DNA of 64,000 bases from Umbilicaria muhlenbergii (taxonomy: Eukaryota; Ascomycota; Lecanoromycetes; Umbilicariales; Umbilicariaceae), in contig KK106984.1 in the NCBI GenBank assembly GCA_000611775.1, positions 1,394,364-1,458,363 of the forward strand, in the 5' to 3' direction. Made by a program: the position numbers and the translations under genes. Positions 1-64,000 of this stretch are shown piece after piece. The notes below the pieces were generated by a model. That model made no database searches. It worked only from the letters and a program-made list of their open reading frames with translations, and had not been told where the DNA came from. Positions within the stretch are counted from its first letter, which is position 1. Each line of letters opens with the position of its first letter.

Positions 1-3000
1 CAGCAGATGATGATTAACAAGTTAATGCATTCTTCTTACTTGACATCAACATTCATCAATGAAGACACAAACAGTATGTGTTTATTTATGAAGCTTTAAC
101 ACTAAGCTTACAAAGAAGCAGTGAGTAACACTTCATCATTAAACTTCTTATCTGAAGCAGCAGATTTACTTTATCACTGTAAGTGACCTCCTTTTAAGTC
201 TGAATATCACACTTACAAGCGCAGAAAATAGGCAACAAATTGAAGAATACAATCTCATGTTCATTCTGCACAGTTTTCAGAGACATTCAGCTTCTCTTCC
301 TAATAATTATATGAGCTCACAACAGCAACGTAATTTTGAGATGAGTAAGTCATAATTCAATTAAGGAATTGATCATCATAGTTAAAATCAACAAGAACTT
401 AAATCAACCCTCAATAAATACAGTCAGTGACTCTCTCACACTTGTCAATTTTCTTAGCGCAGCAGGAGATTTTTGAAATTCTTACTTTAACTCTGATGAT
501 ACATTAGTGAACCTGACAGAACACTATCTTTGAAATTTTTATATCACTCTGAACAGGACACTCATCAACTCTTCAGGACATAATCTTTGAGACTTTTAAA
601 ATGTGCTGAATACAACACTCATTAACTCAAGAGAACACAACCTCTGAAACTTCTACATTGCTTTCAATGAGACACTGATCAACCTGCTGATATACATTGC
701 AGGTTCATCTTGCTGATCAGTTACAACAGTTGAGAAGTAATAAACAGAATGTTCATCACTGATGTAACTTTCACCTCTTTCATTATGTATGTTGTTCAGT
801 TGAAGGTTAATGATAATACTTTTTTTCCTCACTCTGCATCCTGTCCTGAAATGATTGAATTGCCTTGTATGATATGCATCAGGATCATGAAGGTCAGGGC
901 TTTTGTGTTTAAAGAGCCTTTTGAATTGAAAGATTTTGATGAATCAAGAGCTGATACACGTCTAATTTGATAAACAGGATGAGTAAACTAAATGTTCATC
1001 AGTTAAAGTTTTAACATTAAAGCAGTATCCTCACCTTCTTGATTAAGTTCATCTCACACAGTAAGGCTCACTTCTCACTCAGGCTTTTGTCTGTACATAT
1101 GTTGCTCTTAGAGTTGAATACTACATGAGATAGTCAGTTCTTTAACTCTGTCAAAATTGTTTTATCATTGTCGCTCAACTCTTGCTGTGTGAGATGTGAT
1201 ATGAGCAGCTCTACTGTAAACATCTTGAAAGATCAGGAGTAAGGTAGATTAAAAACATACAAGTGCAAAATAAAATAAAGTGATGATTCTTTATTTATTA
1301 ATGTTGTGTCCCTGTTGATACTGTGTCAGGATGAAGAGCACTGTGACTGAGAATATCATTTTATGAACAGTCCTCAAAGTTTACTCTGATTGATGATGAG
1401 GCTGCTTTGAGTGAAAGGTTCAGTTTGATTACCTCATACTCATACTTCATCCCAACCGCCTCATTGGCAGTTAAGCAGAATTCATTAAAGTGAGCAAACT
1501 TTATCTGATGTCATACTTGCTGCACTTGAACACTCTTTACTATTCAGCCTTTTCACTGCCTCAATGAGTCTCAACATTGAGCAGCAGCTGCTATGACTTA
1601 TTCAATGACAGAAGTGTACCTGAAATGAGGAATTTCTCACACTACAAAATTGAACAGTCAGTTCAGGGGCTCAGGGCTTCACTGAAGGCATACAGCTTTT
1701 AAAATCAGAGGTGAACAAGTTTTTCACCTCTCTGAATCAGGAGCTGTCAATGAATATCATAATTAAGCCTGTTAACTTAAAAAAAACATGACAGGGAGCA
1801 GTGATCTTCTGTTCATTCAACATGTTTTACTTCATCTCTCAATTTGTCATCTTATATCATCTTTTCTTCATCTGTAATGCTTCATGACCTCCTCCTTTTC
1901 TTTACTTTCACATAGAAGTCACTGAAAGAGCAAGTAAAATATTATCTTCCTGTTCAATATTTCTGCAGTTACTCATTCTCTTGTTGCAGAGGCAGGCTGC
2001 TTATGAGCACATTTTCAGAGTCATGTTACATGACAGTTGAGTGCAATTGTCCTCTTAAAGACTGTTCTCTGAGATCTGAGGCCTCATTCTGCCTGAAAAA
2101 ACTAGCTATGCTGTATTCTGAGATGACATGATATAGATCCCTGAGTGAGTGAACATTAAAGACTCTTTGATTAATGACTGCAACAGTCATGTCAACAGCA
2201 GTGATGAAGTCATTCATCTTTATGATAATGTACATCCTTATATCATGAGTCACTCAGCGTCATGAGTTAAAATCTGAGTATGTTGACTTTAAAGCAATTT
2301 TGACTTCACATGCACATTAAATTTGACTTGATTCTGTGTGAGTCCTGTGATTGAGTCATCATGAACTCCTCAGACATCTCTCAATTAAAATTTTATGCTG
2401 ACATCATCACCTCACAGCCTGATTTGTAGAGGTCTTCTTTTCAAAGTAATACAGAGTCTTATCATCACAGCTTCATCACTGAGCCTTCATCACTCTCAAT
2501 ACTTAAAAATAAGCAGTATCAGACCCTTTAAGCATCCTCATTCTGCTGAGAAGCCTTTGTCAGCCGTGAGAGTGTCACATGAGGTTGATTCATATAACAA
2601 CATCACACTGATTGATATCTTTCTATTAAAGTGATATGATCCTAATCATTTCTAAACATCATCCGCACGTCTCACATAATAATTACACTGTAATTTAATC
2701 AATGAAAGCTAATCAAGCTGAGACTGTGATTTAAAAGCCTGTGATTAAGCTCTTTTGATGAGTGCAGCTTTCTGAAAGTGCCAGTGCAGACTCAGATAAT
2801 GAGAAAGTGAAAGACACTGATTAAATCTCACAGCAAAGTTTTAAGACATTTCAGCATAATGATGACTGCAACTCACTGCTACTGCAGAAAACCTTTTGTG
2901 TCAGTTTTTTCTCAATTGCAAACACATGTTCACTCAGCTGTTTGTGTGTATTGTGTATGTCAAATCATATGTTGTACTTATTCTTTTTGTCAGCATTCAT

Positions 3001-3020
3001 GTAAGCATTCATATCATCAT
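1..3020. other. AT-rich stretch without recognisable gene
   Basis: I see no family-level match in this stretch on either strand. Short open frames occur (for example 2395-2634 on the plus strand), but they lack coding character and are bounded by the TGA codons typical of the whole window. It may hold the worn-out upstream part of the NLR gene that begins at 3022. Confidence 0.5.
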
Positions 3021-3334
3021 CATGGCTGAAGCAGCTGTCATCATCAGATTCATTGCCTCAATCATCACTCTTGTTGAGCTCACAGTCAAGGTTGTCTTTT
3101 AACTGCATGAGTTCACCTTCAAGTCCTCAGAAGTCCTTGAGTTGTTTCACTCTCTATCAACCCGCTTACCTTTATTGACAGCAACACTCAAACACATTCA
3201 GTTTCAGGCAGAGTATAACTGCTTTTCAGATAATTTAAAAAAGGCTCTGAAAATAGTTATCAATGACACTTTCAAACAAGTGTCTGATATACAAACATCT
3301 CTGTTTAACATTCTCTCATCAGATGATGCTTCAA

Positions 3335-4284
3335 CATCCGCAACTTGACAGCCCGCTCAAAAATAAGGTTTTAGTTAATAGTACTTTATACGCTCAGAGC
3401 ACTCTCTGAGCAGTAAATGAGCTCATACAAATCTTACACTTTAAATAACTATTATACCTTCATGAATAATAAAAAACTTTTTATTGAAAAGTTTTAGATC
3501 TCTTTATTCTGTACACTTTACAAACTAAAGATTTCTTCATAAGTTTTAATTTGCAATAGTTATTCAAAGTATGTGACTTTTTTTGAAAGATTTTTCACTA
3601 TTGAAATTGAATTAAATATAACTTAACAACAACAGCAGTTATGAAGAAACTTTTAATTTAATATTAATAGAGAATACTGTTCTTTATAACTTATGCATTG
3701 AAAGTTTCTTCATATCTGTTGAGGTGCAAAAGTTATTAAAGTGTGTAAATTTTTAAGTGGTGAAAATCTTGAAGTTCTTTAAATATTCAGAACTCAACAC
3801 TTATACAGTGCTTTCAGACTCAACAAATCATGATTTTTTATTGCAGAAAAGTGAATTTTAGCAAAAGTTTACTTATTATAAGTTTTACTGTTATTATAAC
3901 ACTGTGTGTGTACTTCTTTAAACAATTGTTTTAATAAGTGGTGAAAATCTTGAAGTTCTTTAAATATTCAGAACTCAACACTTATAGAGTGCTTTCAGAC
4001 TCAACAAATCATGATTTTTATTTGCAGAAAAGTGAATTTTAGCAAAAGTTTACTTATTATAAGTTTTACTGTTATTATAACACTGTGTGTGTACTTGTTT
4101 AAACAATTGTTTTAATAACTGTTTTTTTATCACAAAATTTTGATGTTCCGCTCAAGATTTAAGGTTGAGCTCAAAGTGCTCAGAGGATGCTAAGAGCGGC
4201 TGTTAACTGAGACATGAGATCAGAAGCTCAGAGCGCTCAAAGTGTTAAAAACTAACTCAGAGTTAACTTGCTAAATTGCTGATG
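3335..4284 (+). repeat. 1.12-kb terminal-inverted-repeat element, copy A (rearranged, 950 bp)
   Basis: Begins CATCCGCAACTTGACAGCCC and ends CTAAATTGCTGATG. The two ends are imperfect inverted repeats (CATCCGCAACTTGGCA against CATCAGCAATTTAGCA). It interrupts the N-terminal coding part of the NLR relic at 3022-7228. Compared with the 1,120-bp copies it lacks about 349 bp between two GCAATAGTTAT direct repeats, and it carries an internal direct duplication of about 181 bp. No open frame of note. No clear target duplication. Confidence 0.9.
3755..4115. repeat. 181-bp direct duplication inside copy A
   Basis: The block starting AAGTGGTGAAAATCTTGAAG at 3755 recurs at 3936 almost unchanged. Other copies of the element carry this block once. 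Both units keep TGG where several other copies have TGA. Confidence 0.9.
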
Positions 4285-6029
4285 AAAGCTGAAGCAGGCA
4301 TTGAAAGCATTAAAGAGTTTAACTCAAGAAGATAAAGTATGATGAGCATTAAAAAAGATATATGAGAATAATAATAACTTAATACTGTATCAGATGACAC
4401 AGAATGTCAATACAAGTGATCACATCTTAAAAGCACTGTTGAAGCTGAGTGTGATATCATTAACATTATCATGCTCTTCATTGATCATCCTGTTTGAGCA
4501 GGACCCTGACTTTATTGATCATGAAGTCATTGTTGATCAGCTTCATTGAAAATGCGCTGTGTCAGCATCTCAGACAGCGCTCATGAGCTTGAGCAGAGTC
4601 AGGTAAGCAGAGATAAGCAGATGCAAATATAACAGATTAAAGTATTAACTTCAGGTCAGAAAGTCACAGCTCATCATTAAACTCAATTATCAAATCAAGA
4701 AACAATCACTCAGAATGTAAGTACTCTGAGTGCATGCTGAGAGCATGACATGATTGAAGCTGAGCTTTCAAGATATCACTGATTGTGTTGAGATTCTTGA
4801 GTGACAGAATTTCAAAGTGAATGTCTTCTGACTTATTCATGACTGATTGCATGATGAACAGAGTGAGTGATGATTGCTCATTTTTAATAACATTAACAAT
4901 ACTGATCTCCTCTCTGAGGCTGAAGACGCTGATCATTGAGGACAAGAGACTGAGGTGAATGATAAATGTCAACAGCTGATATCAGTGTATCTTCCTCAAA
5001 GTCAGAATGAGTTAATTCTCATCATCAGTTAAAGTCAAGTCATCATGTTGAAGCTGATGAAAGAGAAGAATATCATGACAGTGTTACTGATGACCTCATC
5101 ACATGTGCTGACACTGTTCAAGAAGAAGCTAAAGCTGCTCAGTTAAAATGATGATACTGCAGACTTAACAGCAGCACTGAAGTTTATGTCACTCATTATC
5201 ATGCAAGTGATGACATACATCTCTCAGAGGACATTGTGATATTTCATACAGTGATATCTCATAGACTTCTGAAAGACTGAGCTCAAGAGGACAAGTCTTT
5301 TAAATAATAAAAGAGGTCAGCTCTGAAGAGACTAAAAAGCTTAAAACTTCATCATCATCACATGATAGATCTCATTTAAATACATTTGTTAAACTCAATC
5401 ATCAGCAGTTGACTTGCTGTCACTGATGAGCTTCTTTGATTGACAGGGCATCTCAGAAGCCTTGATTCAAAAGTGAGTTGAAAATGAAAATGATCACAAA
5501 AGTCAAGAAGAGCGTGATGAGCATGATGACAGAGAAGAAGAGAAAGGTGATGATGATAATGATTATAATACCTCAGAATGCAGTGAGGATGACAGGTTTA
5601 AAAATGACATGTAGATGTTAAAAGACTACTCATTTCTCTTCATTAATATGAATCAGATCTTTAAAATGCATGCATTGATGCAACTGACTACATGAAAATG
5701 ATTGAAGGTCAATGAAAAGCTTGAGTAATGAAAGCAGTGTTATATTAAAAACCTTTTCACTGAGTTCCTGATCAGAGAGTATAAGAATTAAACATACTGC
5801 TGAGCACTTTATCCTCACGTGAAATCAGCAGTTACACAACAGTCAAGGAGAAACAAGTCATTGAGAGAATGAGCTTCACTGTTATATAATGTGACATAAT
5901 ACATGTGTAGCAAGAGAAGCATAACTGAGGCTGTTAACCTGTTTGAACTGATGATGAAAGTAAGAAAGAGAATACTTGATTAAGAGCATATGAAGATTTT
6001 AAGCAGTATGAGTATGATAAGCTTAACAT

Positions 6030-7035
6030 ATATGAATCAAGGATGCTGAAAGGAGGTGAAAGAGCTGAAAGTATAAATGATGAAGACAATGAAAAAAGTA
6101 CTGAGTGAGGAGCATCCTGAAACACTGATCAACATGAGCAACCTTGCTTCAACATATTAAAATCAAGGACGCTGAAAGGAGGCTGAAGAGCTACAAGTGC
6201 AAGTGATGAAGATAATGAAAAAAATACTGAGTGAGAAGCATCTTTATATGCTGATCAGCATGAGCAACCTTGCTTCAACATATTAAAATCAAGGACGCTG
6301 AAAGGAGGCTGAAGAGCTGCAGATGCAAGTGATGAAGATAATGAAAAAAGTACTGAGTGAGGAGCATTCTTATACACTGATCAGCATGATTGACCTTGCT
6401 TTGACATACAATACTCAAGGACACTGAAAGAAGGCTGAAGAGTTAAAGATGCAAGTGATAAAGATAATGAAGAGAGTATTAAGTGAGAAGCATCTCTTTA
6501 TGCTGATTAACATGAGCAATCATGCCTTAACATACAGGAATCAAGGATGCTGAAAGAAGACTGAAGAGCTGCAGATACAAGTGATGAAAATAATGAAAAA
6601 AGTATTAAATGAGAAGTATCTCTCTACACTGATTAACATGAGCAATTATGCCTTAACATATGAGAATCAAGGATGCTGAAAGGAGGCTGAAGAGCTGCAG
6701 GTACAAGTGATAAAAATAAGAAAAAAAATATTAAATGAAGAGCATCCCTTTATGCTGATCAGCATGAGCAACCTTGCTTCAACATACAGAAATCAAGGAC
6801 ATTGAAAGAAAGCTGAAGAGTTAAAAGTGCAAGTGATGAAGACAAGAAAGAAGATACTGAGTGAGGAGCATTCCTCTACATTGATCAGCATGAGCAACCT
6901 TACTTTAACATACAGGAATTAAGGATGCTGAAAGAAGACTGAAGAGCTGCAAATATAAATGATGAAGACAATAAAGAGAGTACTGAATAAAGAGCATTCT
7001 GATACACTGATCAATATATATGACTTTACACTCAT
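6030..7035 (+). repeat. Eight 126-bp TPR-encoding tandem units
   Basis: Units of about 126 bp (42 codons) encode NQGRWKEAEELQVQVM-type motifs followed by LSEEHPxTLxSMSNLASTY. This is the kinesin-light-chain-like TPR common in fungal NB-ARC/TPR proteins. The conserved Trp of each unit is TGA in all eight. The TYxNQG join varies between TAA, AGG, AGA, GAG and AAT codons, which shows independent decay of each unit. Confidence 0.85.
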
Positions 7036-7692: not shown

Positions 7693-9465
7693 TCATGATT
7701 TTAATGCAATTTCATCCTCCTCAACCTGCGCTTCACTCATTTGAGTAATTTTAACCTTTAACTCTGATGCATCTGCTTCTTTCAGACTCTTGCACTTCTG
7801 AGTTATTTTACTCTGATCAAGTTTTTTCTTACCTGCAGTAACTTTTTTTACCTCTGATGTAGCACTTGTGACTTCCTTTGCCTCTTTCACAGCCTTTTTA
7901 ACTTCTTTCTCAGTCTTTTTAGCCTCTCTCTCAGCCTTCTTAGCCTCTTTCATGACCTTTTTTGCAGCTCACTCTGCTCATGTCTTCTTGAGGTTTTCAT
8001 AATTCATCACTCTCACCTCTCTTAAGTTCTGTGACTTGGTTGATCAGTGAGCTTTGACTTTATTGTTTATTTCAATCAAGAATTGATTGTGTTCCTGAAG
8101 AAGAGCACATTCAGCAAAGAACAGTTAAGTGATATTAATGAGCTTCTGTATGTGCCTCTGTATGTGTTGTTTATTTATTTCATTAAGCATATTAGCATCC
8201 TGTTTGATTAAATTATGTAGTGAGGCAACTGCTTCTGCTGACACAGGTGTTACAGGTGTTTGTGGTACTTAATTTTGCATATGAGAATTTACCTCATTAA
8301 TTTTCAGAGCAGTTAGTTCAGTGAAGAGCTTTAGTATATCACTGAGTACCTTATCTGAGTTGAAGGGGAAAAGGCTAATCTTAGCTCATTCAACTCATAT
8401 ATTTCTAGATATGAGCACTTGAGTCCTTGCAGAGTTATATAAATAAGTGAAATACTTCTTGCTGATTGTTTTTACACATCTTCACTCTAGTCATTCAACC
8501 TGATCATGATAGGCCGCCTTCAGTGAGTTAAATACTGAGATATCACAGGGCTGAAGCTTATGTAATGTGTGAGAGAGGAGACAGCACAGGGTAATATTAT
8601 TTTTAAAGCAAAACTTTAAAACCTCAAGAGTTTCATGCATTTTGAAGCTGTCACATATCAGTACTCAAGGTTTCTGATTAGCGCGCTCTTTGGTTTGAGG
8701 GTCAAATACAAGCTTGAGTCACTGCAAGTTGATATATGAGTCAGTATATTCAGTGTCAGAACACGCATAATGTCATTTAAAAGTGAGGTACATGATTCAG
8801 TTGACTTAATGAGTTGCTGCTGATCAGATTATCATGAGATTCAAATATCTACTCACTGCACTCATGCATTTGATGATTGTTATCATCATGCACTTAACAT
8901 GCATGCTTTTATAACCTCACTTATTGTCCTTACTGACAAGGACTTTAATAGAGTTGAGCTTAAAAAGCATGATGTCAGTCTCATTCATGTTATACACATT
9001 TTTCTGTAACATGATTAAATCCTGCAGTACCTTTCTGATCATCTTGAATCAATGCATGACCTTCTCATAGATGTCATAACAGTTTCAGTTTAACACTTCA
9101 CTCTTACTCACTCTGAGTTCTGAATGATGTTTATAAAAGGACTGTGATTAATTCTTGCTCAAAGACTTACTTGATCTGTTTGTTGAGAGCCGCTGACGGG
9201 TGAGACTGAAGGCTATTGAATATATATACTTTATTCAGATAAAGCGTTCAAGAGCATTCTGTTGTATCAAGAACTTAACAAGGGCTTTTACTTCTCACAG
9301 GTAAAGATAATGTTGACTTTAAATCTTCTCTTTCTTAAATCATTGACCGCGTGCATGATGCTGAAAAGTAGTGTGAGGGACGTCATTATGATCTGTTAAA
9401 GCATGAAATGATTTAAACACATCTTTTAAAAGGCCTTGTGTCAGTACCTGACTAAGTTTGTTCAT
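7693..9465 (-). pseudogene. Pogo/Fot-like DDE transposase relic (CENP-B HTH)
   Basis: One frame of 590 codons runs from the ATG at 9465 to a stop at 7693, broken only by in-frame stops and with no frameshift that I can see. N-terminal part: a CENP-B-type HTH ending YIYSIAFSLTRQRLSTNRSS. DDE core: YNMNETDIML (8994-8965), then KLVFDPQTKERANQKP, VLICDSFKMHETLEVLKFCF with the second Asp at 8652-8650, and HKLQPCDISVF with the third Asp at 8544-8542, about 35 residues later. The C-terminus (7953-7693) is a Lys/Glu-rich helix. This layout is that of Tc1/mariner-superfamily pogo-like transposases of Pezizomycotina. The first catalytic Asp is Asn (GAT to AAT), exactly what TGG to TGA produces at ATG-GAT. 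Terminal inverted repeats were not found. Confidence 0.88.
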
Positions 9466-11560
9466 GTTAACTTACTGTGATGATGAGTGATGATGAGGGA
9501 ATAAGAATGAGTGAAAAGCAGCCTTCAAACAGTGCTAAACAACAATAAACTTAATGAGGTGAAGACAGCTGATCATGAAAGCTTCTGAAGCTCTTCTGTG
9601 ATGCATCACAGTCAGTTCAGAAGACTAATCTGAAAGAATAATAACATCAGATATAATACAATTAATACATGATCATGTAAGTACACTAATGCAAGTCAAG
9701 GCGTGTTAAAACATTATGTCATGTTGAGAAGCTGTCAACATCCTCTTTCTCAGATTAGCAAAACTCATAAAACATACATTTCTGAAAGCTGACAGTCTTC
9801 AAAGCTTGAAGTCATATTCATCCTCAATAAAACTTCCCACTTAACACTCTGAACTTTGAAGAGACTCTTATAGTCACAGCTCATCAAGGGGAAGCAATTG
9901 AAGCAGTGATCAATGATGTCAATGAAATGATCAATCACTTAATCAACATCATGATAAATCTCATTATGGACTGATGTTCTGAAAGAGAAATGACTGTAGA
10001 ACAGTGACACATTGATAATAACTTCATAAACTTGTGAAAGAGAGACTTCAGAGGTTTAAACCATGAATTCAGCTCATGACAGTGAGCAGCTCATGTCACT
10101 GAGACCTTTTTTATTTGCTTTTACTCAGAAATTGAACTTGAACATACTTTGTAATCTTTAAAAACAAGTGGGAAATGCTTATCTAACTATAAGATCATGA
10201 CTGAAGAGCTTGAACACTCAAGGTTTACTCTGAAATCTGACTTTCAAAAGCTGACAGTGTTTAAACTTAACAGAATTCACTTGAACATGTTCTTGAACAA
10301 TGATAAGAATGAGGATTGAAGTTGTCATTTTCATGTTTATGAAGTGACAAGTTGAAAAAATCAGTTTATTTTAAAGCTTAACATAGTCCGCCGTTCTATA
10401 CCGTCAGGGGTGATGATTTGAGGTGCAAGTGAGTACAAAAATCACAGGGTCAAGTGTCAACTTATATTTAATACTGACAGTCCTTGACTCTATTGTTATC
10501 AGATATTTGTATGAATAGATGATTGAGCATTCAACAGTCATGTGTTAATCTTAAGCATACATTGTTGAAATTGCACGTGAATAGAGGTCAAATCAATTTA
10601 TATTTAACTTAAACTACTTAGATATCATACAAAGTAGATAATAATGAATGTATAGAACAAAGCAGAAATCTTAAGACTTTGCAGTCATATTTGCACACTT
10701 TTGAGAGCTTTTCACTCAGGCTTAAAAAGCAATGTACTCATCATTGATGTGACTGCTTTGATCATCAAAAGTCTGCTCATATATCCGCTCAATTGATTCT
10801 GCGCATACTGAAAGTTAATTAGTTGCTAGGGCAATGAATAGGTGACAGCAACAATTGACTGAAAATCAACATACATGCAGTGCATTAATTCACAATAGGA
10901 CTTGTGCAGAAGCAGTGACATTACTCACAACTTAATGCTCTCCTGTGTTTATTGCATGCACTTCACTACTTGATCTGCATCACTCCTATCAATGAGCGGA
11001 TTTGAGGGTATATGACATGAGGTAAAAGCAATTCAGCTTGTGCTGAGTGATTATGTTATAGTAATCCCGGTGATCTTCAACCAGTTATAGAGCTCAGCCT
11101 CAACAGTGAGTGAGCACAGAACTGTGTCATTCTTCACACCTCATTTTAACACCCTTCTCTTGAAGGCAAGTTTTGAACAGAATATTTCAATATCATTGAC
11201 ACATTGAGAATTACTTGATAGTGTTTTGATAAAGCCTCAATTGACTCATATTTTTAAGGAAAGACAACACTCAATTGACTTACTTTGTCAGATCTTCAGC
11301 GCTGAAGATGACTTAAAGTTGACACTGCAACACAGAATGACCCCTGCCTGAGCTTTCTTAAAATCATGTCATTTGATGACAACACTGAGGGTGAGGAAAA
11401 TCATAAATTAGTATCCTAGATATTCTTTGTGTTTGAGAGCAGTCTTTAATTTACATTCCTCAGAATTAATGAGTTTCTGATTCAAGTCAGGACAATTCAT
11501 ATCTCAGAAAAATAAAAAACATAATAAAACAGATACACATCATGATTATCAACTCACACA
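9466..11560. other. No confident gene; weak minus-strand coding traces
   Basis: Around 11030-11230 a minus-strand reading (containing SQCVNDIEIFCSKLAFKRR and ELYNWLKITGITIT) looks protein-like, but I cannot assign a family. A CCGG-containing patch at about 11055-11095 is less mutated than its surroundings. The rest shows no structure I can name. Confidence 0.3.
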
Positions 11561-11583
11561 TATTTAATAATCATTGATCACCT

Positions 11584-15612: not shown

Positions 15613-16158
15613 GCTTCCAAAACGGCTTCAACGACAGCCTCAAAAAACGGCTTCCAAAACGGCTTCAACGACAGCCTCAAAAAACGGCTTCCAAAACGGC
15701 TTCAACGACAGCCTCAAAAAACGGCTTCCAAAACGGCTTCAACGACAGCCTCAAAAAACGGCTTCCAAAACGGCTTCAACGACAGCCTCAAAAAACGGCT
15801 TCCAAAACGGCTTCAACGACAGCCTCAAAAAACGGCTTCCAAAACGGCTTCAACGACAGCCTCAAAAAACGGCTTCCAAAACGGCTTCAACGACAGCCTC
15901 AAAAAACGGCTTCCAAAACGGCTTCAACGACAGCCTCAAAAAACGGCTTCCAAAACGGCTTCAACGACAGCCTCAAAAAACGGCTTCCAAAACGGCTTCA
16001 ACGACAGCCTCAAAAAACGGCTTCCAAAACGGCTTCAACGACAGCCTCAAAAAACGGCTTCCAAAACGGCTTCAACGACAGCCTCAAAAAACGGCTTCCA
16101 AAACGGCTTCAACGACAGCCTCAAAAAACGGCTTCCAAAACGGCTTCAACGACAGCCT
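15613..16158. repeat. 37-bp minisatellite inside the MITE
   Basis: About 15 visible, virtually identical copies of a 37-bp unit containing CGGCTTCCAAAACGGCTTCA and then ACGACAGCCTCAAAAAA. Because 37 is not a multiple of three, all frames stay open and repeat every 37 residues, which explains the long spurious frames here. The array runs into the unsequenced gap. Confidence 0.95.
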
Positions 16159-17490: not shown

Positions 17491-17499
17491 GCAAGATAT

Positions 17500-49539: not shown

Positions 49540-49589
49540 TGATGATGAAAAATAGTGACGCTGTGAGGTGTTCAATCATCTGAGGTCTT

Positions 49590-51265: not shown

Positions 51266-51685
51266 GCAAGCGCGTTGCTAATCTCAGCAAACCTTGTTGT
51301 GAGACATAGTATAGTGGTGAATTCTTGAAAGCTAAGAGATCACTGGTGTAGTAACCAACACCCTGAATTTGAGTTCAATTTTTGAAACTATTGCTCTCAT
51401 AATTCAATGACTTGATGCCTAGGTTATTCACTGCATTCAAAAGGTCATCAATCACTCTCTGATGTTCTGATCAGAAATTTGCTGAATACTCAGTCAGCAG
51501 GAATGTTGAGAAAGTTTCTGATGTTATAGAGTCTGATTCATCAAAGTGTAAAAGGTAATGAAGACAGGATCTGCTGATGAAGCTGTGAGCACTACTTTCT
51601 GAGAATGAGAAGGAAGAGGCGTGTCTGACAGCAGAATGAAGCCTCTCAGATGTCAAATATCTTTGCACTGATGAATGTGCAAATT

Positions 51686-52133
51686 TCAGCTTGTCTCAGG
51701 ACACCTTTCACCACCTACTGAGATTAATCAAATTTGTGATCAGTGAGGGCCTTGCAAGGACCTCATGCTCATTAAATTTTAATGTATGAGGGGTTCTCAC
51801 TTATACCCGGTTTAGTCAAGCTGCGGAAAAGTGGAATTTTCAGGCAGTTTCAGGGGTAAAAAAGCAGGCATATGAGTATTGCGGGGAAACTGAGGTTTTT
51901 TGTATAGAAGTCAGAGGCCTCCATTGAACTCTTCTACTATTACTTAGATAGAAATTACACTTGTTTTACATACAAACATCATCATCACCATGTCTGCTCC
52001 CGCCTAGTGAAGTCTAAGTTTTCGCTAGTAATTTAGTATGTAAGCGGGCTGACTCACCCTGGCATGAAGGCGTCAGCTAACTGAAACTGCTTTAATTTCA
52101 GTAGGTGATGAAAGGTGTCCTGAGACAAGCTGA
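51686..52133. mobile_element. 448-bp MITE inside the NACHT-ankyrin gene
   Basis: Terminal inverted repeats of about 42 bp begin TCAGCTTGTCTCAGGACACC at both ends. A 6-bp duplication CAAATT flanks it (51680-51685 and 52134-52139). Removing the element with one duplication joins EELKF to AHSSVQRYLTSERL in frame, which matches the family. The two ends differ by TTTCACCACC against TTTCATCACC, a CCA to TCA change. There is no coding capacity. The inside keeps several CCGG, TGG and CGG, so it is less mutated than the gene. The superfamily is not assigned; the 6-bp length could also be read as 8 bp with asymmetric ends. Confidence 0.88.
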
Positions 52134-53159
52134 CAAATTTCAACTCTTCACGCCCTTTATGCTCATAATGAGTATTGAGTGAAATCATCATCAGACTTGA
52201 GCAGCTGTCTGAGATGAAGTGTGACTCCTTTACTCTGCTAAATATCTTGAATGAATAATCAAGATTTATTGCAGAGGCTTCTGCAACTTCTTCAAGAAGT
52301 AATGAATGCTGAGTGAATGCAAGTCACTGCAGTGCTGCCTTGATCTTGATAATCACATTGCCCTGAGGTGTCCTGTCCCAGTTGTAGATCTCATTGAGGA
52401 TTTAATCATATGTAGCATTCAGGTCAAGTGAAAGGTCCTTCAAAGCACTCCTCACATCATCCTCAGATAAACACTCACGCAAAGAGTTGATCTGACAGGC
52501 GGCTCAGCGAAATCTTCATAATAAATTTGATGTCAGCGCCGTCCACTTTATTTCATTCACATGAGCATACAAAGAGAACAGTGACTTATAACCCTTCAGT
52601 GTCATTTTGAAGTGTGGTTATTATTTCATCCTTGATGAGATGATTTCTTCACTTCTGCAGTTTGCCATTCTCAGTAAGGCTTTCATGAACTTGCAGTCTG
52701 ATGTCAAGGTCAACTGTATCAGTCTGAACACTGATGATCTCAGTGATGATGTCTTGAAGAACTTCAATGATTCTGTTCTGCTTCTGACTGATGACAAGCA
52801 TCTGCAGATTCCCCTGACTATTGATATGCATGAATTTTATCAGGTTCAAAAGTTCATTCATTTCCTCACATTCATCAAGAGCATCTATAAAGATATGAGG
52901 ATTGTTGATTTGTGGTAGAATGTTCATTAAAATGTTGATGAGCAGTTTCTGTGAAATAACTTTGCCCGCTTCATAGTTTTTGTACAATGTCAAGATCACC
53001 TCTGAGATTGCTGTCATTCTGCTACAGAACTGTTCTAGAATAAACTGTAGAAGGTTCAAGACTGCTTGCTTTTCTCTATCAGTAATGTCAAAATAATAGA
53101 ATGTAATTGCACTGCTCTCAAAGGATGCCTGTGTATTTTTCACTACAGTTGAACTTTAC

Positions 53160-54247: not shown

Positions 54248-54765
54248 TCTTCTTAAGGAGTGATAGCAACTTGAAGAGTCTGCTATGATTATTTCATGAT
54301 ACCTTCTCTAACTAACTGACTGAGGGATGTAGCTTCAAAGCTTCATGTAGTTGTCTTGCAGGGATACAATGAGGAAAGATGAACAAGATGTGCTGTGAAT
54401 CTTGCAAAAGCTTTCAGCTGCTTCAATCTGATTCATTAACCCTGCATCTGAGATATCCTGAGTAGCCTTGTACTACACTCCGCGTAAGTCAATCATGATA
54501 CAACATATCTTTTTTTCTAAAGAGAACAGGACAAAAGCTTCAGAGAATTAATAAACTCATTTATATGCAGCTAGATAAAATTATCTTCTGTTAATCATGT
54601 TCTGAATGTGTCCTGGTCATAAAAAAGTTTCACCTCTGAAAAGACTTGACAGACATCATATGCCTGTCACCTCAGATTGTCTGCATCTTGCTGCTTGAGA
54701 TTTTGTAACAGCTGCTGCTCTCCTCATGCTATATGAGCAGTCAACAAATGGCACACTGATTGACG
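54248..54765. other. Upstream region of the NLR relic
   Basis: Non-coding as far as I can see. It separates the start codon of the NACHT-ankyrin relic from copy E and would have held its promoter. No motif identified. Confidence 0.4.
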
Positions 54766-55885
54766 CATCCGCAACTTGGCAGCCCGCTCAAAAATAAGGT
54801 TTTAGTTAATAGTACTTTATGCGCTCAGAGCACTCTCTGAGCAGTAAATAAGCTCATACAAATCTTACACTTTAAATAACTATTATACCTTCATGAATAA
54901 TAAAAAACTTTTTATTGAAAAGTTTTAGATCTCTTTATTCTGTACACTTTACAAACTAAAGATTTCTTCATAAGTTTAAATTTGCAATAGTTATGAATTA
55001 AAAAACTTTTAACTAATTATAAATATATTAGCATATTGAATAACTATTGCGCTTTTATACTTCTGATATAACTTTCAGTTTATAAGTTGTAGAGAATAAG
55101 CTGTTTAAGAGTTTTTTTATACAAAGTTTCTTTTTATGTGTTGTTGTTGTTGAGTTATTCAAAAAGTCATTAAAAGTCTGTTTATTAATGTTGTGATTTT
55201 CGTCACTGAAAGTTTGAAATCAATGTAACTTTTTAACAACAACAGTTATAAAAAAACTTTAAGTTATAGAACTGTTTAATAGCTTCTTCTCTACAACTTA
55301 TAGACTGAAAGTTATATTATAAGTATAAAAGCGCAATAGTTATTCAAAGTATGTGACTTTTTTTGAAAGATTTTTCGCTGTTGAAAACTTGAATTAAATA
55401 TAACTTAACAGCAACAGCAGTTATGAAGAAACTTTTAATTTAACATTAATAGATAATACTGTTTTTTATAATTTATGCATTGAAAGTTTCTTCATATCTG
55501 TTGAGGTGCAAAAGTTATTAAAGTGTGTAGATTTTTAAGTGATGAAAATCTTGAAGTTCTTTAAATGTTCAGAACTCAACACTTATACAGTGCTTTCAGA
55601 CTCAACAAATCATGATTTTTTATTGCAGAAAAGTGAATTTTAGCAAAAGTTTACTTATTATAAGTTTTACTGTTATTATAACACTGTGTGTGTACTTGTT
55701 TAAACAATTGTTTTAATAACTGTTTTTTTATCGCAAAATTTTGATGTTCCGCTCAAGATTTAAGGTTGAGCTCAAAGCGCTCAAAGGGTGCTAAGAGCGG
55801 CTGTTAGCTGAAACATGAGATCAGAAGCTCAGAGCGCTCAAAGTGCTAAAAACTAACTCAGAGTTAACTTGCTAAATTGCTGATG
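54766..55885 (+). repeat. 1.12-kb terminal-inverted-repeat element, copy E (1,120 bp)
   Basis: Runs from CATCCGCAACTTGGCAGCCC to CTAAATTGCTGATG. It is the best-preserved end sequence of the family and keeps CCGC and TTGGCA. Flanked by CG on both sides, which may be a 2-bp duplication but is weak evidence. No coding capacity. Confidence 0.93.
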
Positions 55886-56412
55886 CGGTCAACACAGCAA
55901 TAACCAGGTACTGAAGATTCAAAACAACATGAAAATTGACATTGCTGACATCAGAAGGATTATGAATATGAGGTGAGAAGAGTTAAAGAGTTCAGAGCTC
56001 AGACTCCTCTTGATATCCTTCCTCAGCAGGCTGACCTGCAACCTCATCTCAGGCTTGAAGGCACAGGAGGAGGAGTAATGCAGTCAGCATCATTATGACA
56101 TCTGTGAGCAACAGAAACACAACACATCAACATGTCATCATCTACATAATTAATTTACAGCAGCAGCAGGGGTGAGGGAGGACAGCAGTGATGAGGATGA
56201 AGATGACATCAAGAGCAGAGACTTTCATGTGATGTGAGTAATTAATTCATTTCTAGCTAGAGACTGAGGTAGATTATTGAGTATATAATTCATTCACTCA
56301 TAATTCATTCACTCAAACATAAACTCCATCACAACTTCATTCACAACTCACACTCACAGCTGCTAAGTGCAGCTACAAGCTCAATTGAATGACATAATGA
56401 ATCAACAACATC
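55886..56412. other. Possible upstream exon and intron of the next relic
   Basis: An acceptor-like TTAATTTACAG near 56160 is followed by an acidic coding-like block (56165-56225) and a GTGAGTAATT donor-like site. The block recurs at 13440-13565. It could be an early exon of the relic that starts at 56413. Confidence 0.35.
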
Positions 56413-57925
56413 ATGCCTGAGGGTCTCACCTACCGTGATATGTGATGACGCATTGCCAAAGGAGTGCTCAATACACAGAACTTCAAACTTAAACTCTTTT
56501 CACTGCATGAATAAACCACAGTCAAAGACCCTGCACTGAGAAAACTAACAGGTCTGGCAAAGAAGAAGGTTAAGAATAACACTTCACTCAACACCTTTTC
56601 TTTCAACATGAAAACCTACCCCGGCTTTGACGCTTTATCAGATAATATTCAAACAGGTATTATCAACCTGAATGACAGTGACATTCAGTATCATGAAAAG
56701 AGCCTTGAGATATCATTAAAACAAGGGTTTTAAATTCAGATACATTGTGTTCTTCATGATCATGTGCTTCTAATCAGCACTGAAGAACTCAATGGCTATC
56801 AAGCAAGTTGAAGGGACAATTCATGCACTGCATCACACATTCAGATGACCCTCATCAATCAAGACTCAACTCTACCCTTTATCATTCTCTGTGACTGCAA
56901 CAAGCTGATAACTGCTACATTTCTACACTGCTCTGAGACATCAGACTTTTCATCATTGTCATTGTGATATGATCCTCAACTGAGGCCTTGTTCATTTAAA
57001 GAGTCAACAGCATGATGAGAGACTGTGAAAGCCTGAAAGCTCAGAAAGAACATCATCATCATATTTGTCACCCTTAACAGCAATCAGCATATATTCAATG
57101 AAATTGAATTCAGTCATGCGTCAGAGATTCTACACCTGACATGTATATCCTCAGCAGCTACCAGCTTCAGTGTATATCAGAATTCAGAATGTGTGAATCA
57201 TTTCCTTAATGCAGCTCAGCAGTTCTTCTCACATGAAATGTTCACTCAGTATGAGCAATTTGTACCTGTGAGTTAAAGCAATCATAGCACGTTCCTTGAA
57301 TCAGCTTATATCAGTGACTACATCAATAAAGATTTGAAGGTCTATCACTGCACTGAAGTCACTACCTCAGTCTTCAAAGATCATTATGAGTTCCTTCACT
57401 GCAGAGGGCTACTGAACTCCTTCATGTCATCACTCAATGTTAAGAAAGATGAATGAGTCAGTTGAGATTTCTTTCTTCAGTTCAAGAAGGTTCTGATCTA
57501 CTGCCTCAAGATGAACTGCACATGACTGAAGCATGCATACATCATCATCCTCACCTTGTCACTGAGTTCAAAATGTGAGCTCATGTTTAATGCAGAAGCT
57601 CTCAAAGTCATTGAATCTGATCCTGCTGAGATTGATATTGTCAGCTTCATGAATATCTGAGCTGCAACCCTCAAGGTGAAGAAGGCTTCTGAAGGATGAT
57701 GATTTGCAGTTAAGACTGAGCTGAGAGAAAGGCTTAATAAGAGTAAGAGAGTAAAGAGAATGACAGCAGCTGTGAATGATGTGAAGAGTAAATCTGATTA
57801 TGATGACACAGTCAATGATGATGAAGTTACAGCTGATAGAGTCATGCTGTTGAGAAATGAGGTCTTACTAAGCTTAGTTGATGATGCTATTTCACAGGAT
57901 GAGTCATATGATAAGGCTTACAATG
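56413..57925 (+). pseudogene. Unknown long gene relic, about 500 codons
   Basis: From the ATG at 56413 a single plus-strand frame runs without frameshift to the insertion point of copy F, interrupted by about 13 TGA and 3 TAA and no TAG. Readable parts include MPEGLTYRDM, FSFNMKTYPGFDALSDNIQT, QMTLINQDSTLPFIILCDCN, FLNAAQQFFSHEMFTQYEQF, VFKDHYEFLHCRGLLNSF and a charged C-terminus (LRERLNKSKRVKRMTAAVND, then an Asp-rich stretch). It is hydrophilic, without membrane segments. I do not recognise the family. Copy F cuts it at the 3' side (SYDKAYN), so the end is missing or displaced. Confidence 0.65.
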
Positions 57926-59045
57926 CATCAGCAATTTAGCAAGTTAGCTCTGAGTTAGTTTTTAACACTTTGAGCGCTCTGAGCTTCTGATCTCATGTCT
58001 CAGCTAACAGCCGCTCTTAGCACCCTTTGAGCGCTTTGAGCTCAACCTTAAATCTTGAGCGGAACATCAAAATTTTGTGATAAAAAAACAGTTATTAAAA
58101 CAATTGTTTAAACAAGTACACACACAGTGTTATAATAACAGTAAAACTTATAATAAGTAAACTTTTGCTAAAATTCACTTTTCTGCAATAAAAAATCATG
58201 ATTTGTTGAGTCTGAAAGCACTGTATAAGTGTTGAGTTCTGAACATTTAAAGAACTTCAAGATTTTCATCACTTAAAAATCTACACACTTTAATAACTTT
58301 TGCACCTCAACAGATATGAAGAAACTTTCAATGCATAAGTTATAAAAAACAGTATTCTCTATTAATGTTAAACTAAAAGTTTCTTCATAACTGCTGTTGT
58401 TCTTAAGTTATATTTAATTCAAGTTTTCAACAGCGAAAAATCTTTCAAAAAAAGTCACATACTTTGAATAACTATTGCGCTTTTATACTTATAATATAAC
58501 TTTCAGTTTATAAGGTGTAGAGAATAAGCTGTTTAAGAGTTTTCTTATACAAAGTTTCTTTTTATGTATTGTTGTTGTTGAGTTATTCAAAAAGTCATTA
58601 AAAGTCGGTTTATTAATGTTGTGATTTTCATCACTGAAAGTTTAAAATCAATGTAACTTTTTAACAACAACAGTTATAAAAAAACTTTAAATTATAAAAC
58701 TGTTGAATAGCTTCTTCTCTACAACTTATAAACTGAAAGTTATATTATAAGTATAAAAGCACAATAGTTATTCAATATGCTAATATATTTATAATTAGTT
58801 AAAAGTTTTTTAATTCATAACTATTGCAAATTAAAACTTATGAAGAAATCTTTAGTTTGTAAAGTGTACAGAATAAAGAGATCTAAAACTTTTCAATAAA
58901 AAGTTTTTTATTATTCATGAAGGTATAATAGTTATTTAAAGTGTAAGATTTGTATAAGCTCATTTACTGCTCAGAGAGTGCTCTGAGCACATAAAGTACT
59001 ATTAACTAAAATCTTATTTTTGAGCGGGCTGCCAAATTGTGAATG
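57926..59045 (-). repeat. 1.12-kb terminal-inverted-repeat element, copy F (1,120 bp)
   Basis: Runs from CATCAGCAATTTAGCAAG to GGCTGCCAAATTGTGAATG, directly abutting the frame of the relic at 56413-57925. Same orientation as copy G, with a 233-bp spacer between them. No coding capacity. Confidence 0.93.
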
Positions 59046-59192
59046 AGTGAATATTATACTTCTGAAAGCAGGAAACTTCCTATGCAACATTAAAAGAGAA
59101 GAGGTGATTATTGACATCATTAACATTCATGAGGTTAATCATTTAATAAAAAATCAAAGGAACTCCTGCATGCATTTTAATGTTGAAGTCTC

Positions 59193-59278
59193 TTTCTTTT
59201 TGTCTTTGTTTGAATAATTTAAGGCAAGGTGCCTCTGTTTATTGCATTTAAAACAACATTCTTCCTTTATCTGTTGTT
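59193..59278 (-). mobile_element. Retroelement gag zinc-knuckle fossil, copy 2
   Basis: Almost identical to 44267-44352 and in the same position relative to the adjoining 1.12-kb element. The minus strand carries the CCHC-type pattern. Broken fragment; no further parts of a retroelement are recognisable here. Confidence 0.55.
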
Positions 59279-60398
59279 TATCAGCAATTTAGCAAGTTAG
59301 CTCTGAGTTAGTTTTTAGCACTTTGAGCGCTCTGAGCTTCTGATCTCATGTTTCAGCTAACAGCCGCTCTTAGCACCCTTTGAGCACTTTGAGCTCAACC
59401 TTAAATCTTGAGCGGAACATCAAAATTTTGTGATAAGAAAATAATTATTAAAACAATTGTTTAAACAAGTACACACACAGTGTTATTATAACAGTAAAAC
59501 TTATAATAAGTAAACTTTTGCTAAAATTCACTTTTCTGCAATAAAAAATCATGATTTGTTGAGTCTGCAAGCACTGTATAAGTGTTGAGTTCTGAATATT
59601 TAAAGAACTTCAAGATTTTTGCCACTTAAAAATTTACACACTTTAATTACTTTTGCACCTCAACAGATATGAAGAAACTTTCAATGCATAAGTTATAAAG
59701 AACAGTATTTTTTATTAATGTTAAATTAAAAGTTTCTTTATAACTGCTGTTGTTGTTAAGTTATATTTAATTCAAGTTTTTAATAGCGAAAAATCTTTCA
59801 AAAAAAGTCATATACTTTGAATAACTATTGCGCTTTTATACTTATGATATAACTTTTAGTTTATAAGTTGTAGAGAAGAAGCTATTTAACAGTTTTATAA
59901 CTTAAAGTTTTTTTATAACTGTTGTTGTTAAAAAGTTACATTGATTTCAAACTTTCAGTGACGAAAATTACAACATTAATAAACAGACTTTTAATGACTT
60001 TTTGAATAACTCAACAACAACAACACATAAAAAGAAAGTTTGTATAAGAAAACTCTTAAACAGCTTATTCTCTACAACTTATAAATTGAAAGTTATATCA
60101 TAAGTATAAAAGCGCAATAGTTATTTAATATGCTAATATATTTATAATTAGTTAAAAGTTTTTTAATTCATAACTATTGCAAATTAAAACTTATGAAGAA
60201 ATCTTTAGTTTGTAAAGTGTACAGAATAAAGAGATTTAAAACTTTTCAATAAAAAGTTTCTTATTATTTATGAAGGTATAATAGTTATTTAAAGTGTAAG
60301 ATTTGTATGAGCTCATTTACTGCTCAGAGAGTGCTCTGAGCGCATAAAGTACTATTAACTAAAACCTTATTTTTGAGCAGGCTGCCAAGTTGTGGATG
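59279..60398 (-). repeat. 1.12-kb terminal-inverted-repeat element, copy G (1,120 bp)
   Basis: Runs from TATCAGCAATTTAGCAAG to GGCTGCCAAGTTGTGGATG. Left end and left flank match copy D; the right flank does not. It keeps GCCACTT near 59610 where copies B, D and F have ATCACTT. No coding capacity. Confidence 0.93.
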
Positions 60399-61601
60399 AG
60401 TATTAATCTTTGAATGCTGAGTGAACTTGAAGCAGATCAGCCCTAGTTCTTTAATGATACATGAACCTAAAACATGTTTATTTTAACTTTCACACAATGA
60501 ATGAGTTTATGACTGAATCTGCCTTGATTCTTAAATACTGAGTGATACCTAAAAGCAGATCTGTTCTAATTATTAAACACTGAGTGAGTTTAAAGCTCAA
60601 GAAGCTGAGTCAGCTGCTTGAATCATGACAGCAATGAAAGACAGCTTCAGCTGTTGATTAAATCTTATGTACAGCATCTGCATCATAAACATCACATACC
60701 TTACCTACCTTACTGTAAGGTGTGCATGATAATCATAATTAACAAGTGATCATCTTGATTAAAACAAGGACTAATAGCAATTCCTTTAAATTAATTAATC
60801 TCTCTGTGTTTGTGATTCTAGAGTGCTGCACATCAGTCATTATCTTATAAGAATTAAAATCCTTTGACTCCTTCATGAGGCAGCATTGAAATCAGATCAT
60901 GATTTATCAGTCAACAATCATCTGTCATTCTTAGCATTGATTTGCGGGGATCATGAATACTCAGGCTAGTTCATGATGTCAATATAGTGTTGTAAGCAGG
61001 TAGCGTGCATGGTGTTGAGCTTAACTCACAGACACATCATGAACTTGACATGATGAATTTTTAATAACAATGAGATACCCCTGTGCTGTCAGATTTACAT
61101 GAACTACTCTGAAGTAAAGCAGCTGCTACATGTGCATGTTCAAAACAAGGGACTCTGACTCAGTCTTCAAGTCACCTTAGTCATGTAACTGCAGATGACA
61201 GCTTAAAAGCTATAATATAACAATGAAGTTTAAAGCATTCATTGACTGATCTTTTTAATTCAGATCAGCCTTTCCCTGAGTGATGTCTTTGTGATTATAT
61301 GTCTGCAAGGTTGACTTCAGCAAGTGTTAACTGATCATTACTTGATGCTGCTGACAGCTGCTGTATTTAAAATGATCAAATTAATCTCTCATTTGCACTT
61401 GTGAGACTGTGCCTGCTACAGGCTCAAAGATAGTGATTATACTTGTTTATAACATTGATTTTGTCATCTTGCAGTTACAGACTAGAATAGTGTTACTGAT
61501 TGTTGAGCAGTAGAGAGAGGATTATCACTGAGTTTACACACATCTCATATAAGAAGCACAGCGGCCGCACTTTTTTCATGTGCATAAGCAATAAAGGCAG
61601 T
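60399..61601. other. No confident gene
   Basis: Loose repeats of ACTGAGTGA phrases at 60410-60600 resemble the tandem units at 17.3 kb. Otherwise featureless, AT-rich sequence. Confidence 0.45.
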
Positions 61602-62240: not shown

Positions 62241-62439
62241 TAACCTGCAGCTTACAGAGTCCCCTGATGTTATGTTAACTTTTAAGCATATAAAGATATT
62301 TAAAAGTCTGCAGTGATGACTGTTCAATCCTTCTTTCCTCACATATAGTGCGTCACTGAAAATGACTCCACCATGAACAGAGTTTGAGCACATTATCATT
62401 GTATATTGCGCATCAAGAAAAGTAAGTCATGAAGCATGC

Positions 62440-62890
62440 ACTGAAGTCCTTCACTTAAAAAGCACGGGGCAGACAACTATCACTCAGAGCTTGATCATGA
62501 TGTGATGCAAGCTTGACAAGAGCAAAGAGATTTCTGAATTATAAAACAGCACAATCAGGTGAAACACTTCTGCAGTGAATAATTAACTCATGCAGCAAAG
62601 CAAGTATGTGAAAGATTTTCAAGCTGTAATGAGTGTTGAAGCTGAAGAGCTCACAATACTTGAAAAAGTAAATACATCTTTGAGCCCTCTGAAGTGTTGT
62701 TGCCATCAACTGACTTGTTAACAGAGGAAGAGTATGACAACCTTGAAGATTATCATTACTTCATTTCTCATTCACGCCGTTTCAAACTGAACCTTTCATG
62801 ACAGGGGAAGAATTTCAGACAGACATTGTTATGAGATGTTTAAAATCATGAAGAGAGATAAGAGTTTGTGAAGAAGAAAGTTAAATAATT
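62440..62890 (+). pseudogene. Downstream coding fragments, unknown
   Basis: Readable pieces in changing frames: MQQSKYVKDFQAVMSVEAEE (about 62591), then FEPSEVLLPSTDLLTEEEYD and NLEDYHYFISHSRRFKLNL. They may be later exons of the gene at 61602 or a separate relic. No family match. Confidence 0.35.
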
Positions 62891-64000
62891 ATTTAATCAT
62901 AAAATCAGTGAAGTGAAGGTTATCTTATTTGAGTGAAGGTTTTTAAATAATAAAGGCTCACCTTCTTCATTTAATAACTTCAATGATGTAAGCAGAATAT
63001 TTATTTGTTTCTAAGAATAACTTACTACTGAGTGACAGTGACAGAGAGCATCATCATGAGGTAAAGTAGTCAAGGTCAGCAAGTGATTTATTAGCAGGAA
63101 ATTAAGTCTTCATTACATAACTTTACACTGCTGATGCTGTCACACTGTTGCCTTTTGTCAGCCTTTCCCTGCAGGCGCTTTGAACAGTGTCACACAGTTT
63201 AACATCATGCTTGAACTCTGATATGAAGCTGAACACTGAAAGTCTTGACCCTATGATACTTTACCTTAAATATGTAGTTTCAAATTACTGTAACTTTTTC
63301 ATAGTGTGACTGTGTATAAATTTACAGCAAATGTCTACATTGACTCTCATAAAGTTATTTCTTACTAGAATAACCCTCAAAACTTTAAAATTATCAGAAT
63401 GACCCTCATGACCCTCATGATTCTCATGATGTCATGACGTCATGACCCTCACTACCTCATCATTACTCTCATAGCTTTATTAATGTCATCTCTCTGTGTG
63501 ACTGTCTTCACTCTCTCTATAAGCAGCTGATTCTTCAAGTTTTCATCAGTGATAACATTCACAGGTGATCATCATATTATTTATCTTATGAAGAAGATCT
63601 GCAGCTGCAGAAACTTTCAAGAGCATCTTCTCTCTTATTAACATGTCTTAACAGTGTGTAAAGAGCATGATTTAAATTCAGAAGATTATGTCAGCCTGAT
63701 ATATAACATGAAATCATATTGAGTCACTTACACTGTGATTTGAGAACTTGTCTCTCTTGAAGAATTGCTCTCTTTATCTTCATGAGAGGCTGTGCAATGC
63801 TTGACTTCTTCTTAATAAAGACTTAATGTAGTTCATGAGGCAACACTGCACTATAGACAACACTGCATCCCCCTCCCCCCTCTCAACTATTGAAATTACC
63901 CATTTCTCCACCATAATTGCATGCATTCAACAGAGAAAGAAGTGCATATTCTGAAGATCATTAAGGTCTATAATAATGCTCTTACAAATTCAGAAAGCAG
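62891..64000. other. No gene; dispersed repeat at 63340-63480
   Basis: 63340-63480 contains ATAACCCTCAAAACTTTAAA and repeated GACCCTCAT, the inverse of a block at 33720-33850. Nothing else is recognised to the end of the window. Confidence 0.45.

Follow-up and report, generated by a model that had tools for sequence, protein, structure and literature searches.

Hypermutation of cytosines in the C-N-A context in a transposon-rich block of the Umbilicaria muhlenbergii genome

Features of the window

We analyzed a stretch of 64,000 nucleotides of the lichen-forming ascomycete Umbilicaria muhlenbergii (contig KK106984.1, C4:1394364-1458363), hereafter called the window, and searched the 34,788,950 bp of the genome in seven contigs for comparison. 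The window belongs to a transposon-rich block that is depleted of cytosines with an adenine two bases further 3' (C-N-A, where N is any base), and it was probably inactivated by a process of the repeat-induced point mutation (RIP) type that targets this context. The window contains the following features.

1-64000, no strand assigned: hypermutated, transposon-rich, C-N-A-depleted block with a GC content of 0.353, as defined by composition, bins and C4 probes
5934-7014, plus strand: tetratricopeptide-repeat gene relic, with five in-frame TGA codons in the piece 6287-6922
7971-9470, minus strand: DDE_1 transposase relic, 65% identical to the homologue L037 and 90% identical to the copy L040 (141 transitions, 1 transversion)
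15418-16637, no strand assigned: young hAT-like non-autonomous element with perfect 24-nt inverted ends and a target duplication
41641-42840, plus strand: gene relic with 16 TGA, 4 TAA and 0 TAG; second copy at C1:6531027-6532224, 91% identical
42999-44121, plus strand: 1.12-kb AT-rich repeat with near-zero CCA and CGA
44348-45473, 54763-55886, 57925-59048 and 59274-60401: further copies of the 1.12-kb repeat
34650-35620 and 3334-4286: partial copies of the 1.12-kb repeat
49239-53155, minus strand: NLR-like gene relic, with an NPHP3_N NTPase at 52586-53155 and ankyrin repeats at 49239-50444
56413-57925, plus strand: gene relic with 13 TGA, 3 TAA and 0 TAG (in-frame stop count)

The stop counts of the relics at 41641-42840 and 56413-57925 reproduce exactly those given in an earlier reading made from the sequence only, when stops are counted in the frame that begins at the first base of each interval, and neither frame contains a TGG codon. 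The single piece of each relic that was searched against Pfam (41413-42258 of the former and 57277-57936, overlapping the latter) gave no match. The pieces of the NLR-like relic probably belong to one gene, inside which 13 units of 99 bp form a tandem array at 49957-51256. A search of the window against Rfam at the gathering threshold gave no matches.

Base composition of the window

The sequence-only reading had reported that TGG/CCA is almost absent from the window while TGA/TCA is abundant, and this depletion was confirmed. Relative to base composition, CCA/TGG is present at 0.20 of expectation, CGA/TCG at 0.02, CTA/TAG at 0.34, TCA/TGA at 2.32 and CAA at 1.19, while CpG is depleted to 0.15. 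The signature was found in 124 of the 128 bins of 500 bp, the young element at 15418-16637 being the main exception. The loss also persists after correction for dinucleotides, as judged from 100 first-order Markov simulations: CCA+TGG occurs 251 times against 980 expected (standard deviation 27), CGA+TCG 32 times against 235 (17) and CTA+TAG 802 times against 1783 (45). The share of C among C+T depends mainly on the two bases that follow on the 3' side, being 0.006 before GA, 0.044 before CA, 0.188 before TA, 0.446 before AA and 0.775 before AG.

Since CGA is depleted even more than CCA, and CTA is also low, the rule is C-N-A, which is wider than CCA. The proposal of a CCA-specific effect thus captured a strongly depleted triplet, but its scope was too narrow, because CGA, CTA and, weakly, CAA are also targets. 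Similarly, the statement that AGG and GGG remain frequent was correct for AGG (1.08 of the base-composition expectation) and not for GGG (0.46), although the latter reaches 1.67 once corrected for dinucleotides.

Direction and sequence context of the mutations

The direction of change was determined with a polarized pair consisting of a lightly mutated DDE-transposon copy, L056 (C2:6076501-6083500), which itself carries two TGA in its DDE_1 stretch, and its saturated sister L057 (C4:1245001-1251000). BLAST aligned the two copies in five pieces; over the longest two, which together cover 3,741 aligned columns, we counted 492 C:G to T:A changes from L056 to L057 as compared to 13 reverse changes and 5 transversions, and the GC content fell from 0.473 to 0.340 in the longer aligned piece.

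The fraction of mutated cytosines was highest in the C-N-A contexts, with 103/110 for CCA, 67/84 for CGA, 55/100 for CTA and 40/155 for CAA. With another base at +2, the fractions were 31/65 (CCG), 39/117 (CCT) and 12/71 (CCC) when C is at +1; 25/64 (CGG), 29/89 (CGT) and 33/102 (CGC) when G is at +1; 17/142 (CTG), 6/131 (CTC) and 5/135 (CTT) when T is at +1; and 12/128 (CAT), 13/141 (CAG) and 4/104 (CAC) when A is at +1. Overall, 265 of 449 C-N-A sites had mutated versus 226 of 1289 C-N-B sites (B being C, G or T), and the odds ratio for A at +2 was 30.7 for CCA, 16.6 for CTA, 7.6 for CGA and 4.1 for CAA (all p ≤ 1.3e-7). The deviance explained amounted to 273 for position +2, 237 for +1, 20 for +3, 10 for −1 and 3 for −2. 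The strongest determinant is therefore A at +2, followed by the +1 base, at which C or G is favored over T and A. The 5' neighbor had a small effect on C-N-A hits (73/124, 37/71, 83/132 and 72/122 after A, C, G and T, respectively), T at −1 marking the least mutated 5'-neighbor class overall (114/485).

CCA offers an internal control because it contains two adjacent cytosines: the 5' C alone was mutated 90 times and the 3' C alone once, as compared to 63 and 75 times in CCB. Grouped by dinucleotide, 69/528 CpA, 185/363 CpC, 154/339 CpG and 83/508 CpT sites were mutated, which places CpA among the least mutated classes. The suggestion of the sequence-only reading that a RIP-like process hits the 5' C of CCA, and not the CpA of classical RIP, is thus supported.

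The depletion of CpG and the scarcity of TCG/CGA could also be taken to indicate a CpG- or TpCpG-type hypermutation, as in basidiomycetes, with the loss of CCA as a by-product. Yet the CpG-free contexts CCA and CTA are mutated at 103/110 and 55/100 sites, and at CGA sites other than TCGA, 58 hits fell on the cytosine that has A at +2 and 5 on its partner preceded by T, the opposite of what a TpCpG preference predicts. Moreover, a CpG-only simulation leaves YCA (Y being C or T) at 0.38, whereas the window shows 0.035. The polarized pair thus refutes this explanation, and we regard it as very improbable. The TpCpG hypermutation of Microbotryum and other Pucciniomycotina (as described in the consulted part of PMC5381629) resembles the present case in its three-base target and in its RIP-like action in repeats, but there the target is defined by T at −1 and G at +1, whereas here the −1 base is nearly irrelevant, A at +2 dominates and it is the opposite cytosine of CGA that is mutated.

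Replication, control pairs and simulation

As a second reference we used L037 (C1:6629601-6631200), a lightly mutated distant homologue (65-66% identity) with a single TGA in its DDE_1 stretch. When the window relic at 7971-9470 and the copies L040, L041 and L042 were compared with L037, the contexts ranked as in the polarized pair, CAA excepted: the mutated fractions were 75/102 for CCA, 89/130 for CGA and 40/73 for CTA, the lowest being 41/166 for CTC. The window relic and L040 differ by 141 transitions and 1 transversion, which points to a shared ancestry, so these two are not independent. In nine unpolarized pairs, with 1,482 transitions and 224 transversions, the polymorphic fraction peaked in C-N-A when A, C or T occupied +1. 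Unpolarized comparisons of saturated copies alone gave a weak result. The pair L033/L034, which encloses the two copies of the 41641-42840 relic, was compared over 1,796 columns, of which 167 differ by a transition and 5 by a transversion, and transition to transversion ratios of 208:3 and 66:0 were seen in further pairs. Both members of the tandem copies L013a and L013b had been hit, with 122 and 86 T/A states, respectively, if all changes were C to T.

Control pairs with little signature showed no effect of the +2 base (odds ratio 0.9, p = 0.86 for L036/L038; odds ratio 1.2, p = 0.52 for L011/L012). These controls are not fully normal, as CGA is low in L036 (15/81) and L038 (13/81), and L012 has CGA at 0.59 and TCA at 1.79. 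The pair L011/L012 was unsuitable as a polarized pair, with 74 forward and 57 reverse transitions.

In a forward simulation, normal host DNA was mutated to a GC content of 0.355 and scored by Jensen-Shannon divergence on the 4-mers of the window, with positions 15001-17000 left out. A model combining the +1 and +2 bases came closest to the spectrum of the window (0.009), followed by CpC+CpG (0.031), CpG-only (0.056), CNA-only (0.073), no context (0.080), CpA+CpG (0.132), CpT+CpA (0.187) and CpA-only (0.346). The +1 and +2 weights were set by hand, guided by the nine-pair data, so the simulation serves as a consistency test only. CpA and CpT mutation models were rejected on both the simulation fit and the context in the polarized pair.

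Codon outcome in the relics

The six TGG codons of L037 correspond to five TGA and one TAA in the window relic at 7971-9470, and to the same codons in L040; in L041, four of them are TGA and one is TAA; L039, a lightly mutated copy, shows TGA at two of the positions, and L042 does not span any. For this one window relic, the claim that the TGAs of relics sit at tryptophan positions thus holds from the side of the TGG codons, while 10 of its 15 TGAs face other codons of L037 (three CGG, two CAA, and one each of CGA, CGC, TCA, TGC and CTC). Conversion of TGG to TGA (CCA on the opposite strand) and of CGA to TGA means that relics die mainly by TGA, and the change of TGG, CGG and CGA codons to TGA explains why TGA is so frequent and TAG so scarce with no change of the genetic code.

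An alternative code in which TGA is read as tryptophan might be suspected from the near-absence of TGG and from the TGAs at tryptophan positions in one relic. However, TGG/CCA is ordinary in intact loci (0.95-1.12 at eight TCP1 loci), the 1104-residue DIM-2-like open frame L009 has TGG-encoded tryptophan and no internal stop, TAA is also found among the relic stops, and non-coding repeats have changed in the same way. That intact genes of this assembly use TGG normally refutes an alternative code, which we consider practically inconceivable.

Distribution of the signature in the genome

For comparison we used eight TCP1 loci, fetched from 23 matches, and 20 samples of 10 kb each, spaced along contigs C1-C3 and averaging a GC content of about 0.50. 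Housekeeping genes did not share the loss of TGG, as all eight TCP1 loci were normal overall (GC 0.49-0.57, CCA at 0.95-1.12 of expectation). Of the 20 samples, 17 were likewise normal overall (CCA 1.01-1.32), while L013, L016 and L024 carried a strong signature. These three accounted for 48 of the 53 affected half-kilobase bins among 400; the other five lay in L019, L020 and L031, so that three of the 17 normal samples contain one to three affected bins each, with bins pooled regardless of copy number. These results bear out the expectation that the signature is restricted to repeats or silenced DNA, as far as these pooled bins show.

On C4, nine of nine 600-bp probes from C4:1320001 to C4:1500600 carried the signature, whereas three probes at 1.20, 1.53 and 1.56 Mb did not. 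The probe L047 (C4:1380001-1380600) lies in a GC-rich stretch within the block, with a GC content of 0.478 yet CCA at 3/51 and CGA at 0/48; the signature thus cannot be equated with low GC.

The prevalence of TGA extends to transposon domains genome-wide. Matches to RVT_1 contained 682 TGA, 106 TAA and 15 TAG, with stops in 149 of the 150 best-scoring of 877 candidates, and matches to DDE_1 contained 127 TGA, 49 TAA and 4 TAG, with stops in 39 of 43. The sole stop-free RVT_1 match among the 150 scored (G000:C3:3998714-3999376) lies in an open frame of 544 amino acids and may belong to a host gene or to an element that was spared.

Lightly mutated and target-poor repeats

The element at 15418-16637 lies between two copies of CTCATAGT (15410-15417 and 16638-16645), its 8-bp target duplication, and it is presumably of the hAT type, judging from the 8-bp length of the duplication; its interior contains a 37-bp tandem array and an N gap at about 16159-16406. 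CpG and CCA have largely been kept (46 CpG in 15500-16160; 13 CCA versus 4 TCA in 16420-16720). Among the best 40 of 123 candidates, there are at least 40 copies genome-wide that cover all or most of the first 243 bases at 87-100% identity. The changes among 12 fetched copies and the window copy are still C-N-A biased, with 56/568 as compared to 36/908 elsewhere.

The GC content of the 1.12-kb repeat, determined for two copies, is 0.26 and 0.28. At least 35 near-full copies with at least 95% identity, counting the one of the window, were found genome-wide among the best 40 of 309 candidates, and most are 95-97% identical. The differences between the seven copies of the window include 71 A/T columns. 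This repeat looks as if it had multiplied after losing its mutation targets.

Candidate methyltransferases

The sequence-only reading had proposed a search for cytosine methyltransferases of the RID or DIM-2 type. Candidates for both are present among the four DNA_methylase loci of the genome (L009, L010, L011 and L012), in addition to a DNMT5-like gene. L009 has an open frame of 1104 residues with a DNA_methylase domain, a BAH match of 30.3 bits that falls just below the cut-off of 30.8, and a score of 581 bits to PDB 9bap, which we take to be Neurospora crassa DIM-2; it is a DIM-2-like gene. L010 (C4:3522938) has a DNA_methylase domain with an intact PPCQ motif and one GT-AG intron, read by eye, and no BAH domain was found in it. 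Its motif VI reads EQT, which is presumably a RID feature. The name RID-like is a provisional one, based on this domain architecture and on motifs. The absence of BAH is described as marking the RID/Masc1 group in the part consulted of PMC7862722. L011 has a methylase domain, and the overlapping downstream locus L055 matches SNF2 (E = 3.9e-19) and, with a score below the cut-off, RING; their exons probably form one DNMT5-like gene. L012 (C1:6527376-6527678 and around) is a degenerate partial copy of this gene, 79% identical to L011. It is located about 3.5 kb from L034, the mutated copy of the window relic at 41641-42840.

Species with CpA and CpT signatures have RID homologues, according to the section consulted of PMC4352252, and because these published signatures accompany RID, the RID-like L010 is the first candidate for the enzyme. 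RID itself had not been demonstrated to have methyltransferase activity as of 2008 (in the part consulted of PMC2432034).

Discussion

The hypermutation described here is of the transition-only type, proceeds from C:G to T:A, depends on the bases at +2 and +1, and is concentrated in transposon-rich DNA of a genome that contains candidate methyltransferase genes. From these observations we infer RIP proper, that is, a premeiotic and homology-triggered process. A cytosine methyltransferase of the RID or DIM-2 type, most likely the RID-like L010, would act on duplicated DNA in the sexual phase, with a recognition that would read the +2 base instead of requiring A at +1. On both strands, cytosines followed by A at +2 are converted to thymine, most readily with C or G at +1, less so with T and least with A, and the changes would probably be fixed by methylation-coupled deamination.

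If 5-methylcytosine, deposited by a C-N-A-preferring methyltransferase such as DIM-2, deaminated slowly and spontaneously in heterochromatin, no active repeat-triggered mutator would be needed. The presence of DIM-2-like and DNMT5-like genes and the location of the mutated DNA in long, heterochromatin-like blocks fit such decay, and a lightly mutated copy such as L056 would be expected if the time spent in heterochromatin matters. On the other hand, the survival of 7 of 110 CCA sites together with 5 transversions in 3,741 columns implies a roughly 2,000-fold higher rate at CCA than for transversions, far beyond the usual effect of 5-methylcytosine on mutability, which is tens-fold. The pairs with transition to transversion ratios of 208:3, 141:1 and 66:0 suggest bursts, which also speaks against slow decay, as does the retention of CpG and CCA in the element at 15418-16637 within the block. 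We therefore judge slow decay to be unlikely.

Several observations weigh against a RIP-type process that targets C-N-A. Not every copy is mutated, since L056 was lightly hit and its sister saturated, and the hAT-like element was lightly hit despite its at least 40 copies. C-N-A is not the whole rule, as 87/255 CGB and 82/253 CCB sites were also mutated, although part of the mutation of CpG and CpC without A at +2 may result from two steps (CCG to CCA to TCA). In the L037 family, the effect at CAA was not significant (63/181 versus 119/404, p = 0.21) and CpT mutation was as low as that of CpA. Copies within one transposon family are not independent, and with only four CGA sites left in the unpolarized pairs the class with G at +1 is too small. 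Finally, strand clustering of hits was absent in ten runs tests, two of which lean in the opposite direction (z = 2.75 and 2.17).

The RIP-type process favored here shares with that of N. crassa and other Pezizomycotina the restriction to C:G to T:A changes on both strands, the transposon relics in AT-rich blocks, the sparing of genes and the presence of RID-like and DIM-2-like genes. It differs in that classical RIP targets CpA, which yields TpA and TAG or TAA stops, whereas in this genome CpA belongs to the least mutated dinucleotides and TGA dominates. Accordingly, the CpA-based RIP indices were positive in 0 of 127 windows when 1.1, 0.9 and 0 were applied as cut-offs. The product index of the window is 0.67 and the substrate index 1.63, values that do not indicate RIP by the limits of 0.89 and 1.03 given in the part consulted of PMC3828140. 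The same portion of that paper, on the genome of Monacrosporium haptotylum, argues that RIP cannot create TGA, the opposite of the prevalence of TGA stops found here.

A preference for CpA is not universal even in known RIP, as stated in the part consulted of PMC4352252. The CpG/CpA RIP of Aspergillus nidulans and the CpT/CpA RIP of Botrytis, Sclerotinia and Magnaporthe likewise represent non-standard preferences in ascomycetes, but in the sections consulted (PMC2621366, PMC4352252) they are described by the +1 base alone, with no +2 rule. The published contexts CpA, CpT, CpG and TpCpG, as given in the parts consulted of PMC2621366, PMC4352252, PMC5381629 and PMC4014442, do not use the +2 base. 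The lichen-forming ascomycete Cladonia rangiformis (PMC12542154, in the part consulted) has similarly large mutated transposon blocks and RID/DIM-2 homologues, but most of its transposon DNA has a GC content of 10-20%, as compared to about 35% here; the main text of that paper does not contain the words dinucleotide, CpA or CpG. Umbilicaria and Lecanoromycetes are not mentioned in the main text of the RIP survey PMC7882544. A search for a CpNpA-type RIP context found none in the open-access literature, most subscription papers being outside its scope.

Taken together, the U. muhlenbergii block probably represents a CpNpA-reading form of RIP, the first in a fungus with a determinant at +2, which writes TGA and evades the CpA indices. 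The context of RIP is usually given as a dinucleotide and the indices score CpA and TpA, so that strongly hypermutated DNA such as that described here scores zero. A three-base target, together with lightly mutated and saturated copies in one genome, makes the relation between methyltransferase sequence and target context directly testable. If our interpretation is correct, RIP may have been overlooked in lichen-forming and other fungi, since CpA-based indices would be blind to it.

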